Below, in pieces: positions 8,220-15,995 of a DNA stretch of 40,501 nucleotides (positions within the stretch are counted from its first letter, which is position 1; every line of letters starts with the position of its first letter). Origin of the DNA: Verrucomicrobiota bacterium (GTDB lineage Bacteria; Verrucomicrobiota; Verrucomicrobiia; Opitutales; UBA953); assembly GCA_026397965.1 (NCBI GenBank), contig JAPLTU010000062.1, positions 1 to 40,501 on the forward strand, given 5' to 3'. Both the position numbers and the translations under genes were made by a program. The notes under the pieces were generated by a model that had not been told where the DNA came from, did not search any database, and saw only the letters and a list, made by a program, of their open reading frames with translations.

Positions 8220-8225
8220 GATGAC

Positions 8226-8250
8226 TTGCCAACGATCAAAATCTTGGCAA
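8226..8250. promoter_or_regulatory. Inverted repeat upstream of the first thioredoxin-like gene (possible operator)
   Basis: TTGCCAA (8226-8232) and TTGGCAA (8244-8250) are perfect inverted arms separated by 11 bases, ending nine bases before the ATG at 8260. The two half-sites are spaced about 1.7 helical turns apart, centre to centre (18 bp), which is plausible for a dimeric repressor or a small hairpin over the translation start. No regulator is visible nearby. Confidence 0.35.
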
Positions 8251-8259
8251 ATTCGCCTT

Positions 8260-8745
8260 ATGCGCACGTTGTTCCTGCTCATTACCTCTTGCCTCGCTCT
8301 TGGTGCAGCCGATTCGACGGACAAGGCGCATCAACTCCGGGAGTTCAACCTTGGTCGCTATCTGACCGGGCCACGGATTTCCGAAGGCGCCATGAAAGGC
8401 AAAGCCACCGCCATCGTCTGCATGGGAACCCTCTCCTCCAATCCGCACTCCTGGGCGGCGGCTTGGACTCCCGAATTCGAAGACCTGCATAAAAGCAGCG
8501 GCGTCAAAGTAACCGTCATCGGGGCGGCTTGGGGCAAGGGTCTCGCTCCCAAGGATTACGCCGAATATGCCAAGAAGTTCAAATTAGAGTTCACGCTCGT
8601 CAACGGCATCGAGCACGCACCCTTTGAAGTGCCGCGCGACGGGCATTGCCTGATTTTCAATGCCGACGGCAAACTAATCTACAGCGGCCAACCCAACAAA
8701 GGTAACCAAGATTTCAAAGACGCCATCGCCGCGATCAGCAAGTAA
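8260..8745 (+). CDS. Secreted thioredoxin-fold protein without CxxC, paralogue 1
   Basis: 161 residues from ATG 8260. An upstream in-frame ATG at 8221 adds 13 residues that contain no signal and overlap the inverted repeat. The N-terminus MRTLFLLITSCLALGAADS is an export signal. ITSC also resembles a lipobox, but it comes early. The mature part looks like a TlpA/AhpC-type thioredoxin fold: a first strand ATAIVCMGT, a helix, strand VKVTVIGAAW, and a C-terminal GHCLIFNADGKLIYSG resembling the cis-Pro beta-hairpin region. The CxxC position carries Ser/Asn instead, so disulfide exchange is unlikely. The next gene encodes a homologue: both share F..G(R/K)..(T/S)GP.I(S/T)E near the mature N-terminus. 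Function unknown; periplasmic or surface location inferred. Confidence 0.75.
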   Translation: MRTLFLLITSCLALGAADSTDKAHQLREFNLGRYLTGPRISEGAMKGKATAIVCMGTLSSNPHSWAAAWTPEFEDLHKSSGVKVTVIGAAWGKGLAPKDYAEYAKKFKLEFTLVNGIEHAPFEVPRDGHCLIFNADGKLIYSGQPNKGNQDFKDAIAAISK

Positions 8746-8783: not shown

Positions 8784-9347
8784 ATGCGAAAACTAGCCTG
8801 CCTGCTGCTCTTAGTGCCCATGCTCCTCCCAGCGGCGGAGAAAAAGGAAAAGAAATATGACCTTAATGATTTCGCCTGGGGGAAGATTATTTCCGGTCCC
8901 GCGATCACAGAGGCCAGCACCAAAGACAAAGGCATCATCTTGTTCGGCTGGGCCAATGAAAAGCAGGTACACGGCGAGGAGAACATGGAGCGTCTTTCGA
9001 AAATCAATGAAGAGTACAGCAACACCGTCTTCATGGTCGCCGTCGAATTGACTTCACAATACAAAACCGCAAAAGAACAAGCCGAACTCGGTAAAGCCGT
9101 CAAAAAAGCCAACGTCAAGGTGCCTGTCGCCGCAGGAATGAAAAAATTACCGGAAGGAAAATGGTTCAAGACAACCCCGGCCTGCTTCATCTTTAACTCC
9201 AAGAAGGTGCTCATCTACGAAGGTTACGTTCACGGCGATGAATTCAAACAAGCCATGGAAGAGGCCGGTATCGTAGCCGGCAAGCCCGGTAGCAAACCTG
9301 CGACCGAAGAAAAGCCCGCAGCCAAAGACCCTAAGAAGGGGACCTAA
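8784..9347 (+). CDS. Secreted thioredoxin-fold protein without CxxC, paralogue 2
   Basis: 187 residues. The signal peptide MRKLACLLLLVPMLLPAAE is clear, with likely cleavage after PAA or PA. A Lys-rich start of the mature protein leads to LNDFAWGKIISGPAITEAS, which parallels LREFNLGRYLTGPRISEGA in the preceding gene. The C-terminal TPACFIFNSKKVLIYEGYVHGDEFKQAM matches the paralogue's GHCLIFNADGKLIYSG region in spacing. FGWANEKQV sits where a redox-active CxxC would be. A low-complexity Lys/Pro/Glu tail (about 160-187) extends the C-terminus. It probably arose by tandem duplication and is co-transcribed with its partner. It ends two bases before the stop of the convergent racemase gene. Role unknown. 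Confidence 0.75.
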   Translation: MRKLACLLLLVPMLLPAAEKKEKKYDLNDFAWGKIISGPAITEASTKDKGIILFGWANEKQVHGEENMERLSKINEEYSNTVFMVAVELTSQYKTAKEQAELGKAVKKANVKVPVAAGMKKLPEGKWFKTTPACFIFNSKKVLIYEGYVHGDEFKQAMEEAGIVAGKPGSKPATEEKPAAKDPKKGT

Positions 9348-9349
9348 AA

Positions 9350-10600
9350 TCAACGTACAGCCTGCATACTTTGCCAGGTAAGAGGCAACTTATTGCGGAC
9401 CAATTCGGAGGTCGCACCTGGCAGCCTGTCCGGCCGCAACGGTACGATAATTGTATCCTCACGGTCGACCTGCCCTTCGCTGCGCCCATATTTAAATTCG
9501 TAATTCAGCGACCCGTCGGGAGCGAGCCCGATACCCTTCCAGGCAGGATTCGGTACGGAGATATAAAAATAATCGCCGGTCACCGGGTTAGCCTTGGCCA
9601 TCATCTTGGCAGCTTGCAGCGACCGCCATAAAGTCTCGGCAGTCCAAGCCGCGGGATTCACCTGCCTGAGCTGCGACGCCACGAGCTGGGCGTAAGGCTT
9701 GCTCCCGTCGGCCTCGGCATAATCGCGCCAGAAAGCGAACGACGCGACAATCTCATCAGCCACCAGGGGATAGTGGGTGCAACCGAAGACGAGGGTGTCA
9801 ATAGGGGCGGCACCATCGGCGGCCGCGGCTTGGAGGAAAGTGCCCACGTCCGCTCGGATGATATCTCGGACTGGTGACTTTATGGACGGGTCACCCTCAA
9901 TCGCGGCGGCGAGGGTGGCCGAACCCAGTTGGCGTACGGGACGACCGGTGACCTTGGCGATGGCCTTGGGATAGGCGTTGGAGGCGCAGGTGCCCACGGT
10001 GGCGAGCACGGCGACCCCGCCCTGCGCGCCATGGGCGGTCTCGGCCAAGCCTTGCGCGCCCGCTTCGACGACCCCGACGACGATGACCGGAAGCCCCCAC
10101 GCTTTCACTGCGGCGCGGACGTCTTCGAGCCCGTAAGCGGTGGCGGTATTGCAAGCGATGACGATGGCTTTCACCGGAGGTTTCTCGCCCCTCGCCTGAC
10201 GGCGTCCGAGTAGAAATAAGGCGTCGCGCAGGATGAGCTCACGCAGGAAACCCGTGCGGCCAGCGGCGGAATAGTTGCCGTAGGGCATGTTAGCCTGATC
10301 ACCGAAATAGACGAAGCGCTCGCCGACGAAATCCGGTACACCATCCGCGCCTTCTTCTCCGGTCAGATTATGATGACGGTCATGGGATTTGATCGCTTCC
10401 AGCACCGTGAGACCACCGACGCCGGAATCAAAGACGCCGATAGGCAGATCGCTAAGGTCGCCGCGGTAATCTGCGGCCCGGAAACTTGCGGTCACATCAC
10501 CCTCGGCATGCGCCTTGGCATAAGCGATCACCGATGGAACGATTTCTTCCGCGGCAGATGCGCGCAGAAAAAGCAGTCCGATGAGAAGGAAGCTGCGCAT
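9350..10600 (-). CDS. Glutamate racemase (MurI)-like protein with signal peptide and C-terminal extension
   Basis: Asp/Glu racemase family. The core motifs of glutamate racemase are complete: FDSGVGG (57-63), GDQANMPYG (100-108), the first catalytic Cys150 in ACNTATA and the second, Cys274, in GCTHYP. The usual enzyme is about 260-280 residues and cytoplasmic; this one is 416. Three additions account for the length. MRSFLLIGLLFLRASA-AEE is a textbook signal peptide with an AxA site. A ~15-residue insert follows residue 72. A ~110-residue tail after about residue 300 contains TGDYFYISVPNP and matches no MurI part I know. The gene starts two bases after the alr stop (TGA-CC-ATG), so translation is probably coupled. 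A periplasmic amino-acid racemase is inferred. Whether it supplies D-Glu for peptidoglycan is doubtful if it is exported. Confidence 0.85.
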   Translation of the reverse strand: MRSFLLIGLLFLRASAAEEIVPSVIAYAKAHAEGDVTASFRAADYRGDLSDLPIGVFDSGVGGLTVLEAIKSHDRHHNLTGEEGADGVPDFVGERFVYFGDQANMPYGNYSAAGRTGFLRELILRDALFLLGRRQARGEKPPVKAIVIACNTATAYGLEDVRAAVKAWGLPVIVVGVVEAGAQGLAETAHGAQGGVAVLATVGTCASNAYPKAIAKVTGRPVRQLGSATLAAAIEGDPSIKSPVRDIIRADVGTFLQAAAADGAAPIDTLVFGCTHYPLVADEIVASFAFWRDYAEADGSKPYAQLVASQLRQVNPAAWTAETLWRSLQAAKMMAKANPVTGDYFYISVPNPAWKGIGLAPDGSLNYEFKYGRSEGQVDREDTIIVPLRPDRLPGATSELVRNKLPLTWQSMQAVR

Positions 10601-10602
10601 GG

Positions 10603-11751
10603 TCAGGTCCGGTCAGTTCGATAGACTCGGCGCACCCGCTGGGTAAGGGTGCAGAGCGCTTCCCATGGAATGCAATCCGCCCACGCGCAAAACTCGGCGA
10701 CGGCAATGCGGTCCTTCCCTTGCGCCCCTAGAATCGTAACGATGTCTCCCGCGACAACTTCAGGAATATCCGTGATATCAAGGATGGTCTGATCCATCGT
10801 CACCCGGCCCAGGATCGGGCAGCGTCGACCGTGTAACAGAAAGAACCCGCGATTACTGGCCGCCGTCGGCACGCCATCTCCGTAACCGACAGCGACGATG
10901 GCCACGCGCGACGGACGCGAAAGGACTTTAGTCCGGTTATAGCTGACGGCCGTACCTGCCGGAAGATCCTTCACCAGCACCACGCGGGCGTGAAACGAAA
11001 GAACCGGCTCGGGCTTAAGGCTCGCCAAGAATGACCCCGCCGAAGGTGGCAACCCATACTGCATCAGACCGATACGGACGGCATTGAAAGGCGAATCTGC
11101 GGAAAAACTTTCCAGCCCCGCGCTATTGTCCGCATGAATCAGCATCCGGGCTTTTTCCACCGGCGTTACAAGTGCGAGCAGACGCAAGAAAATCTGGCGT
11201 TGCTCGGTCGTAAAACCGGCATCCGAAGCCGCTTCGGAAAAGTGGGTGTAAATGCCGCGCCAATTGAAACGCGCTTGACTCCGGACATAGGTAAAAAGCT
11301 CCGGAGCGGCTTCATGCCAGACACCTGCCCGCCCCATCCCGGTATCGACTTTGACGTGAACCTTGGCCGTCAGCGCCGAAGCGTTGACGATCGCAGCCAA
11401 GGCGGCGGCTTCCGCTAGAGAGTTAAGCGTGATATCCAAACCAAGCGCGACAGCCCTCGCCATCTCGCCGGGCAAAGTCGGGCTAAGCAAAAGAATATCC
11501 CCTTCATGGCCGATCTCGCGAAGCCGTGAAGCCTCCTCGACATTCGCCACCGCAAAACAATCGACGCCCGCCTGCATTAGACGCGTTGCCACTTCAGGCA
11601 TGCCATGCCCATAGGCATTGGCTTTTACCACGGCGACATAGCGAACATGGCGCGGCAGGGCTAGTTTGATGCGTCCGACATTACGATCGATGGCCGGAAG
11701 ATCGATTTCGACCCAAGCGCGCGTTGCGGCGTCATGATTGGCGGGACTCAT
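10603..11751 (-). CDS. alr: Alanine racemase
   Basis: PLP-dependent fold type III racemase making D-alanine for peptidoglycan, 382 residues. The PLP lysine is Lys43 in VVKANAYGHG. The second-base Tyr region is VSYNRTKVL, followed by VAIVAVGYGDGVP. HVKVDTGMGRAG and the C-terminal LGRVTMDQTILDI are family blocks. The start codon overlaps the tsaB stop by one base (TGATG), and the stop lies two bases before the racemase-like gene. A translationally coupled operon is therefore likely. Confidence 0.97.
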   Translation of the reverse strand: MSPANHDAATRAWVEIDLPAIDRNVGRIKLALPRHVRYVAVVKANAYGHGMPEVATRLMQAGVDCFAVANVEEASRLREIGHEGDILLLSPTLPGEMARAVALGLDITLNSLAEAAALAAIVNASALTAKVHVKVDTGMGRAGVWHEAAPELFTYVRSQARFNWRGIYTHFSEAASDAGFTTEQRQIFLRLLALVTPVEKARMLIHADNSAGLESFSADSPFNAVRIGLMQYGLPPSAGSFLASLKPEPVLSFHARVVLVKDLPAGTAVSYNRTKVLSRPSRVAIVAVGYGDGVPTAASNRGFFLLHGRRCPILGRVTMDQTILDITDIPEVVAGDIVTILGAQGKDRIAVAEFCAWADCIPWEALCTLTQRVRRVYRTDRT

Positions 11752-14260: not shown

Positions 14261-14657
14261 GACGAAACGATTTGCCCGTCGCGTCTAAGTGTCAAGGAAC
14301 GGAGCAGCCGTGTGAACAACTGAGCCGGCGGACAAAGTTGTTCGCAGCAGGCATCTTGATGGCACGAAAAAGTCTGTTGTTCGCCAATGATCGTGAAGGC
14401 GAAAGAGGAAAATATTCATGGAAGTTTCGAGCACGAGCAGCCCAGCTGATCTCTCGCTTTGAAGCGCCGTGCGTGCCCGTCTTTGCCTGCTCAAGCGACT
14501 CAATCCAGCCGCCAGCCCCAGACGCCCTATTCTCCCCCGCCTTGCCCTCCCTCCTGCCCCATCCGGGCCCCTTTGTCGCATATCGTGAATTACCCCACAA
14601 CCCCCTCAAAAGTAGGACTTTACAGATAGGCCAGCTGTGAATAACTATGTTAAAGGC
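14261..14657. other. Divergent intergenic region between trpG/pabA and lpxC
   Basis: About 400 bases without a convincing gene, the longest non-coding stretch in the window. Short open frames exist on both strands but have no family features or plausible starts. It must hold the two divergent promoters. TTTACA (14619-14624) with TAACTA 17 bases on (14642-14647) is a weak lpxC candidate. The stretch around 14490-14560 is very C-rich on the plus strand. I see no tRNA, clear riboswitch or terminator. Confidence 0.6.
14267..14295 (-). promoter_or_regulatory. Candidate promoter for the trpG/pabA-nrdR-alr operon
   Basis: On the minus strand a perfect TTGACA (14295 to 14290) is followed after 17 bases by AATCGT (14272 to 14267), a poor -10. 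Transcription would begin near the GTG at 14260, giving an almost leaderless mRNA. This rests on the -35 match and the spacing only. Confidence 0.3.
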
Positions 14658-15995
14658 ATGAAACAGCGCACACTTGGAAGGGAAGCCTCGGTAAAAGGTA
14701 AAGCCTTGCACACCGGCCAGGAGGTCACCCTTACCCTGAAGCCGAGCGCACCTAACACCGGGCTCATCTTCCGTCGCATCGATCTTTTCGGCAAACCTGA
14801 GGTTCGGCCGGTTTCAGAAATGGTCACCGAACTTGAACGCAAAACGACGGTCTCATCGGACACGGTCAAACTACATACCATCGAGCACGTGCTTTCGGCC
14901 CTGACGGGAATGGGCGTAGACAATGCCATCGTCGAAATCGACGCTTCCGAGCCCCCCATCGTCGACGGTTCGGCACGCCCTTTCACCACCCTCATCCATC
15001 AATGCGGCATCGTCGAGCAAGACGCCCAGCGCGAGGTCTTCACCCTGACGCATCCGATCACTATCAATGAAGGAAGCCGTTCGATTATCGCGCTTCCGTT
15101 TGATGGCTTACGGATCACCTGCACTTCCGCCGACGACCGCGGCATTCACACCCAGCACCTCACAATCGATATCGACCCGGAAACTTACGAAGCTCAGATT
15201 GCACCCGCTCGCACTTTTACAATTTACGAAGACATCGAGGAGCTTTTGAAAAAAGGTCTGATTCAAGGCGGCTCACTTGATTCCGCCATCATCCTAAAAG
15301 GAGATAAAGTCGTCAGCAAAGAACCCCTTCGCTTCAAAGACGAACTCGTTCGCCATAAGATTTTGGATATCATTGGTGACATCGTGCTCGCCGGCATCCG
15401 GCTAAAAGCGCACATCATCGCCGTACGCCCTGGACACGCCTTAAACGCCCGCTTGGCCGCTTCCGTCCGCAAGCAATGGCAGGAGTCCAAAGAACCTAAG
15501 CCCAAGGCCGAAGCTATCCGTAAAATTGAAGCTCCGAAGGCGCCTATCGGCAGTGCGTTGGATATCCGCCAGATTCTCAACGCCCTGCCCCACCGTTATC
15601 CGTTCGTGATGGTCGACCGCGTGGTCGAACTCACCGATGACTCACTGGTCGCGATCAAAAACGTGACGATCAATGAGCCTTATTTCCAAGGACACTTCCC
15701 CGGACAACCCGTCATGCCCGGCGTGCTTCAAATCGAAGCGATGGCTCAGGCTGCTGGCCTCATCATGCTACGCCGCGGTGCCCCGGACGAAGCCCCTAAG
15801 GTCGTTTTCTTTATGAGCGCGGATAAGGTCAAATTCCGTAAAGCCGTCACCCCGGGTGACACCTTGGAGATCCGTGCCAAACTAACGAAGGTTCGCGGGC
15901 GCATCGCCGCCGCCGAATGCGAATGTTTCGTGAATGGTGAATGCGTTTCGTCGGCCGAACTGCTTTTCACCGTCGCAGACTCGCTCAGCACCTAA
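14658..15995 (+). CDS. lpxC/fabZ: Bifunctional UDP-3-O-acyl-GlcNAc deacetylase / 3-hydroxyacyl-ACP dehydratase
   Basis: Fusion of LpxC (residues 1 to about 275), the committed step of lipid A synthesis, with FabZ (about 300-445), the dehydratase of fatty-acid elongation. LpxC zinc ligands are His77 (TIEHV), His233 and Asp237 ([11 protein letters not shown]), with the general acid His260 (PGH). FabZ has the catalytic His346 in [11 protein letters not shown] and Glu360 in IEAMAQ. A Lys/Pro/Glu-rich linker joins them. The fusion is known in Bacteroidota and some other Gram-negatives. Both halves use 3-hydroxyacyl-ACP-related substrates, so fusion may balance lipid A against phospholipid. I preferred ATG 14658 over the GTG at 14637 because family members start just before the KGKALHTG block. 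lpxA follows after five bases. Confidence 0.96.

Follow-up and report, generated by a model that had tools for sequence, protein, structure and literature searches.

The glutamate racemase of the textbooks is a cytoplasmic, essential enzyme of wall synthesis, and in enzymes of the MurI type two cysteines act as the acid and the base, no cofactor being involved. Canonical MurI/RacE proteins (TIGR00067) have a two-domain PF01177 fold with both of these cysteines and with DSG, PYG, CNT and GCTH motifs. BsrV and BsrF are pyridoxal phosphate (PLP) enzymes with an alanine-racemase fold. Here we describe a MurI-like gene (9350..10600, minus strand) in a window of 40,501 nucleotides from a Verrucomicrobiota bacterium (Opitutales; UBA953), the window being the whole stretch of DNA analysed (contig JAPLTU010000062.1). 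Its open reading frame (ORF) of 416 codons starts with ATG and encodes a PF01177 protein with a predicted MurI fold. The protein shares the fold, both cysteines and the motifs of MurI/RacE but differs from them in that it starts like a signal peptide, has about 109 residues without a counterpart, carries DxANMPYG in place of D[TSA]AxxPYG, scores below the equivalog cutoff, falls into a separate clade and has an accessory distribution. With the periplasmic racemases BsrV/BsrF and RacK, named in PMC12502697, it would share a racemase action outside the cytoplasm, as proposed here. The bifunctional DapF of Chlamydia trachomatis likewise relies on two active-site cysteines for glutamate racemisation but, according to the available portion of PMC5885031, is of another family and cellular place and is PLP-dependent there. 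We consider the MurI-like protein, at roughly even odds (about 0.5), to be a putative extracytoplasmic glutamate racemase that would serve the salvage of D-glutamate (D-Glu) as an accessory function and would not be the source of wall D-Glu.

Profile searches assigned the protein to the Asp/Glu/hydantoin racemase superfamily (PF01177, E 3.4e-12, 47 bits versus a gathering threshold of 31), while its TIGR00067 score of 107.9 bits is below the curated cutoff of 146.65 for the MurI equivalog. All 23 distinct sequence matches in the PDB are named glutamate racemase (best E 4.8e-19), and the alignment runs through the motifs DSGVGG, DQANMPYG, CNTATA and GCTHYP, which we take to be Glu-binding. An earlier interpretation of the letters alone (the sequence-only reading) had stated that both catalytic cysteines and the core motifs are kept, and this agrees with the alignment to solved racemases. 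The first catalytic cysteine, Cys150 (CNTATA; 10151..10153, minus strand), and the second, Cys274 (GCTHYP; 9779..9781, minus strand), both aligned with solved MurI, are kept without exception in the 52 sequences aligned, as is Asp58 of DSGVGG (10427..10429, minus strand). Every row of this alignment (A1, 52 rows including that of the window) has DSG, GG, D-x-ANMPYG, CNT, GCTH-x-P and one Arg. Arg373, invariant in 52/52, is part of a stretch close to the C-terminus that is particular to the clade (FYISVPN...KYGR, codons 345-373; 9482..9568, minus strand) and has several columns conserved to at least 90%. A Bsr-type enzyme with an alanine-racemase fold and PLP is not what these data describe, since Pfam gives only PF01177 and the predicted fold is that of MurI.

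The AlphaFold2 model, computed from 42 sequences including that of the window, reached a predicted local distance difference test value (pLDDT) of 94.0 and a predicted template modelling score (pTM) of 0.94, and its top Foldseek matches are glutamate racemases. Superposition on RacE of B. subtilis (1zuw) by VIA-align gave Z 29.7 and 2.3 Å over 255 residues. The aligned ranges are 34-397 in the model and 2-262 in RacE, with 109 of 364 model residues unmatched and the end at 397 of 400. MurI structures are the closest matches (Z 21.5-29.7), aspartate racemases being next with Z up to 18.4. Because the alignment extends almost to the end of the model, the 109 residues without a partner are, according to this model, inserted into an otherwise complete MurI fold of two domains and do not form an added C-terminal domain; for the extra C-terminal part of about 110 residues postulated before, the size is thus confirmed, whereas its description as a C-terminal addition is not borne out. 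The clade-specific stretch of codons 345-373 is likely one insertion site, the alignment having given ranges only.

A contig scan recovered at least 80 loci, which by length and signature were divided into 47 exported-type (L016-L060, L065, L071) and 33 canonical ones; the former together with ten loci of the genus (L005-L014) form the family set of 57. Four incomplete loci (L014, L034, L056, L071) and L011, whose start motif was unmatched, stayed outside the alignments and the tree; L043 was left out of alignments A1 and A2 only, and L047 (containing an X) and the fused L052 out of A2. A tree was built from 53 rows of the exported type and 34 canonical ones, the latter mostly Bacillota because of the way they were collected and hence a narrow sample. 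It separates the two groups with 100/100 support, the branch between them measuring 2.35 changes per column, and the MurI-like protein does not fall among canonical MurI. The signature DxANMPYG (DQANMPYG here; codons 101-108, 10277..10300, minus strand) occurs in 53/53 exported-type versus 0/34 canonical sequences, and D[TSA]AxxPYG in 0/53 versus 33/34. A pattern for the C-terminal FYISVPN...YKYGR region matched 42/53 and 0/34, respectively, while CNT and CTH are present in all 53 exported-type sequences.

The exported-type rows are labelled as members of eight phyla (Verrucomicrobiota, Kiritimatiellota, Planctomycetota, Bacteroidota, Ignavibacteriota, Chlorobiota, Fidelibacterota and Acidobacteriota). 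Nevertheless the family is rare, with at least 8 carriers among 395 genomes in a Bacteroidota draw (including the already known G082 and G091) and at least 7 among 387 in a Verrucomicrobiota draw (including G000 and G018), both being lower bounds as at most four candidates were scored per genome. A search of 72,556 plasmid records (E 1e-20) detected no match. In the open PubMed Central (PMC) literature, searches for a glutamate racemase called secreted, exported or the like led only to a paper that is listed as one on DapF inhibition; no paper combined glutamate racemase with Verrucomicrobi, peptidoglycan and signal peptide, and of those combining it with signal peptide and periplasmic none concerns an exported racemase, judging by the titles. 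The exported-type proteins are apparently a distinct, patchily spread and, going by these searches, so far unstudied clade of MurI-fold racemases. Several of their domains lie in very long ORFs (L021, L028, L029, L032, L040, L052, L131), the first six of which span 736-898 codons from stop to stop. A profile search detected an N-terminal cellulase-type (GH5-type) domain, PF00150, in L021 and a BPL_N domain in L052, and the other long ORFs (L028, L029, L032, L040, L131) were judged alike by length and N-terminus only.

The N-terminus (codons 1-17, MRSFLLIGLLFLRASAA; 10550..10600, minus strand) has the layout of a signal peptide and passes our home-made signal-peptide and lipobox rule, which is not a trained predictor such as SignalP. 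Among the matches listed 52 of 57 family loci pass this rule versus 1 of 33 canonical MurI loci, an uneven control inasmuch as the rule picks the best upstream start and the family ORFs have longer upstream frames than the canonical ones. The five loci that did not pass are L011 (not evaluated), L016, L037, L043 and L055, of which L016 and L055 look signal-like by eye. Within the genus codons 1-17 diverge fast in sequence yet remain hydrophobic by eye. The start resembles the Sec type here and often the lipoprotein type in Bacteroidota. The MurI-like protein is thus probably exported from the cytoplasm: the signal peptide noted earlier as clean is borne out in its layout, and the starts across the family support a putative function in export. 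A depletion of cysteines as a further mark of export was discarded (0.42 versus 0.83 per 100 residues), since the two sets differ taxonomically and both have a median of 2.

The genome of 2.18 Mb (96.5% complete) contains no PF01177 or TIGR00067 match besides the MurI-like gene, so that no second, cytoplasmic murI was found by these profiles. The sequence-only reading had concluded that a sole murI would mean either a misread signal peptide or unusual biology. This dilemma resolves otherwise, as the order is generally devoid of MurI and close relatives also do without the gene; another murI is indeed missing, but nothing was found against export. Of 57 genomes of the order (37 from the genus, counting the own one, and 20 from elsewhere in the order) one, G049, has an above-cutoff MurI, and 56 lack it. 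The exported gene was found in 11 of the 37 genus genomes, in ten of them at full length and in one (G015) cut by a contig end; in a twelfth genome, G049, the match was its canonical MurI. It is absent from the remaining 26 and from all 20 genomes of other genera searched, some genomes in these sets being incomplete.

The gene alr lies directly upstream in 9/9 genus carriers fetched, although the alr of L140 is broken or badly assembled. Inspection of 30 alr loci of the genus, within 517-1500 downstream bases, revealed the gene behind alr in 9 and its absence in 21. In the relative G028 (Alr 97% identical) the flanks are homologous up to the stop codon of the neighbouring gene (9347) and again from within the tail of alr (10619), so that a clean empty site takes the place of the segment 9348..10618. 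Outside the genus an above-cutoff MurI coexists in 27 of 44 carrier genomes tested, among them the culturable Brevifollis gellanilyticus and Sphingobacterium alimentarium, two of the 27 matches (G083, G088) reading through stop codons; 14 of the 17 carriers without one are labelled Planctomycetota (both counts among the matches listed). At the same time the gene appears to be under purifying selection, with a ratio of nonsynonymous to synonymous substitutions (dN/dS) of 0.08-0.14 over codons 51-416 versus five genus relatives (dS exceeding 1 for four of them). Because the order is mostly without MurI and close relatives lack the gene, an essential MurI is probably not what it encodes; judging from this distribution, it is most likely accessory and not the D-Glu source for peptidoglycan.

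A swapping of the gene at this site was also considered. Compared with G024 the MurI-like gene has a dN of 0.066, the highest of 11 genes, and a dS of 0.46; since trpG has a similar dS (0.44), no special history is shown for it. Between contig 45 of G000 and G024 (L132) dS ranges from 0.08 (alr) to 0.46 (MurI-like gene), which may mean recombination between relatives.

As MurD-family matches are present in 57/57 genomes of the order, over the cutoff in 50, the D-Glu-adding step seems to be kept. For the vast majority of PVC (Planctomycetes, Verrucomicrobia, Chlamydiae) bacteria the part of PMC5885031 available to us describes the presence of DapF and the absence of MurI and proposes DapF as the D-Glu source, a role shown there for C. 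trachomatis; in the same text the replacement of either active-site cysteine of C. trachomatis DapF by alanine abolished complementation. A DapF match was obtained in 51/57 order genomes (one listed per matched genome), and 25 of the 51 matched sequences were read (L119 on contig 24 of G000, L112-L115, L171-L190). They align with solved DapF, and in 24 of the 25, the own one included, both catalytic cysteines are replaced by serine, typically in the motifs KSGNG and LASGSS, the exception being G043 with Cys/Cys. Since the chlamydial enzyme, going by that portion of the source, needs both cysteines, DapF was rejected as the D-Glu source. D-amino acid transaminase (Dat) is over the cutoff in 1/57 genomes of the order. 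The own class IV aminotransferase was rejected as Dat (TIGR01121 below cutoff) and is of the IlvE type (PRK08320 445.9, TIGR01122 316.1, both over cutoff), and a second aminotransferase piece at a contig end, 97% identical to the IlvE-type gene over 71 residues, also matches PRK08320 best. MurL is a further possible route to D-Glu, as far as the excerpt of PMC8788868 goes. How an order that lacks MurI and Dat, and for the most part a two-cysteine DapF, obtains its D-Glu is thereby a directly testable question. That its wall D-Glu comes from none of MurI, Dat and DapF, with the exported clade in carriers recycling wall D-Glu and re-feeding it by import, seems improbable to us.

Since the catalytic residues and the neighbouring motifs are kept, a glutamate racemase reaction is the plainest reading of the MurI-like protein. 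The protein would be exported and then located outside the inner membrane, where it would interconvert D- and L-glutamate, or a close analogue, by the cofactor-free two-cysteine mechanism. Its D-Glu may originate from peptidoglycan turnover, from N-acylated or peptide-linked D-Glu or from foreign peptides, and would be converted outside the membrane into L-Glu for import by common transporters, with the gene present or absent behind alr as an accessory. Export, activity, substrate, direction and salvage role are what we infer from these data. Among enzymes of D-Glu salvage, N-acyl-D-amino-acid deacylases, DgcA and L-Ala-D/L-Glu epimerase belong to other families (the amidohydrolase and enolase superfamilies) but resemble the protein in its proposed role in D-Glu turnover, and relatives of some of them lie near family members. 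The protein may instead produce free D-amino acids outside, as suggested in the sequence-only reading, but the consumption of D-Glu fits the few telling neighbours better.

These neighbours were sought in 57 non-genus contexts (46 + 11) by a phmmer search of the ORFs with seven neighbour proteins as queries; the ORFs were chosen by length, which fails in GC-rich loci (wrong frame or strand in L129 and L137, antisense ORFs in L134 and L138). Within three genes a neighbour suggestive of D-Glu or muropeptide turnover was present in 12/57 contexts. PRK09061-type amidohydrolases (Amidohydro_3) account for five of them (L041, L042, L056, L122, L130), located 45 bp away in L041, on both sides with gaps of 3 and 2 bp in L042, as the third gene upstream in L056 and with 4 bp overlaps in L122 and L130. 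As such amidohydrolases (E up to 1e-25) were found in 18/29 genomes with one to a few copies each, their adjacency exceeds chance for few copies among thousands of genes, by rough reasoning and not by a statistical test. AmpG-like and NagK-like genes precede the family gene in three contexts (L051, L057, L121), L051 also having a GH3 plus beta-lactamase protein. L059 (290.8 versus 277.45 bits) and L123 (276.3, just under) have a D-amino-acid-transaminase-like gene at a distance of two or three genes on the upstream side, and a gene similar to DgcA or L-Ala-D/L-Glu epimerase, below the cutoff in both cases, is found two genes off on the other strand in L031 and L053. Outside this count are an AmpG-like piece six genes off (L126), a weak NagK-like match three genes off (L128) and a distant enolase-superfamily gene (L046).

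By eye, SusC/SusD-like genes stand near the amidohydrolase and the exported racemase in L041, L056 and L122; such a locus may serve the uptake of a compound containing D-Glu across the outer membrane. A Gate-domain protein is encoded upstream in five related loci of the Verrucomicrobiaceae type, and two have a cytidine-deaminase-like gene (by eye).

Several observations weigh against a role in D-Glu salvage. None of these neighbours occurs within three genes in 45/57 non-genus contexts, and in the own genus only alr and housekeeping genes surround the gene. The amidohydrolases score 121-213 bits versus a cutoff of 340, and apart from the L059 transaminase all neighbour proteins scored are below their curated cutoffs, the remaining ones having been assigned by similarity to them. 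PRK09061, which we assume to be linked to D-glutamate, has the library name 'amidohydrolase family protein'. The amidohydrolase of L130 has no obvious signal peptide, and in the corresponding genome (G771) no such amidohydrolase was recovered at E 1e-25. Furthermore, many carriers are contigs of metagenome-assembled genomes, in which single placements may be binning errors, and the patchy distribution of the family speaks against a central role.

An exported racemase or epimerase for another substrate, such as aspartate, an N-acyl amino acid or D-Glu within a peptide, appears unlikely, though less so than the other alternatives. The clade-specific DxANMPYG and C-terminal FYISVPN...YKYGR region would suit it, as would the amidohydrolase neighbours and the GH5-type and BPL_N fusions of L021 and L052; however, the motifs aligned with solved MurI are kept and the fold is nearer to MurI than to the aspartate racemases. 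We regard it as improbable that D-Glu is made outside and imported for peptidoglycan in replacement of the missing cytoplasmic MurI. Such a scenario could draw on the lack of another MurI, of Dat and of both catalytic cysteines of DapF in the own genome and has a precedent in Vibrio fischeri, where the periplasmic racemase BsrF emerged in a suppressor of a D-Glu auxotroph according to the accessible section of PMC12502697. It is opposed by the absence of the gene from 26/37 genus and 20/20 other-genus genomes, by the clean empty site and by the possession of an own MurI in 27/44 carriers.

Very little speaks for a cytoplasmic MurI with its true start downstream. Besides the ATG the first 60 codons offer as in-frame start codons only GTG at 24 and 36, whereas signal-like N-termini, lipobox forms included, recur across phyla, the ATG lies only 2 bp past the alr stop and relatives manage without the gene. 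A non-catalytic periplasmic protein binding or sensing D-Glu, the other role envisaged by the sequence-only reading, is comparably hard to maintain: the insertions and the clade-specific C-terminal stretch would allow for it, but racemisation is favoured over pure sensing because the catalytic residues are invariant in 52/52 sequences (window included), and CNT and CTH in 53/53. An extracytoplasmic glutamate racemase for D-Glu salvage, if true, would represent an exported, dispensable branch of an otherwise cytoplasmic and essential enzyme and add an extracytoplasmic D-Glu step. Surveys of 'MurI' by similarity may accordingly count proteins that are unable to feed peptidoglycan synthesis.

The alr gene directly upstream (10603..11751, minus strand) encodes an alanine racemase (TIGR00492, 300.7 bits, over the cutoff) and, as reported previously, is separated from the MurI-like gene by 2 bp according to the ORF coordinates. 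On the minus strand the genes follow in the order NrdR-like (by eye), an unnamed gene, HIT protein, TsaB-like, alr and MurI-like. Tail to tail with the latter lies an ORF for a small signal-peptide-like protein (8784..9347, plus strand), whose stop codon is one edge of the empty site and which is still beside alr in G028. It adjoins another small signal-peptide-like protein (8221-8745, plus strand). Neither of them matches any family in Pfam or NCBIfam, while, of the 21 genus loci without the MurI-like gene, 13 have related proteins behind alr. Further along the window an LpxC-like ORF with a FabZ-like C-terminal part (14637-15995, plus strand) is by eye probably an LpxC-FabZ fusion.

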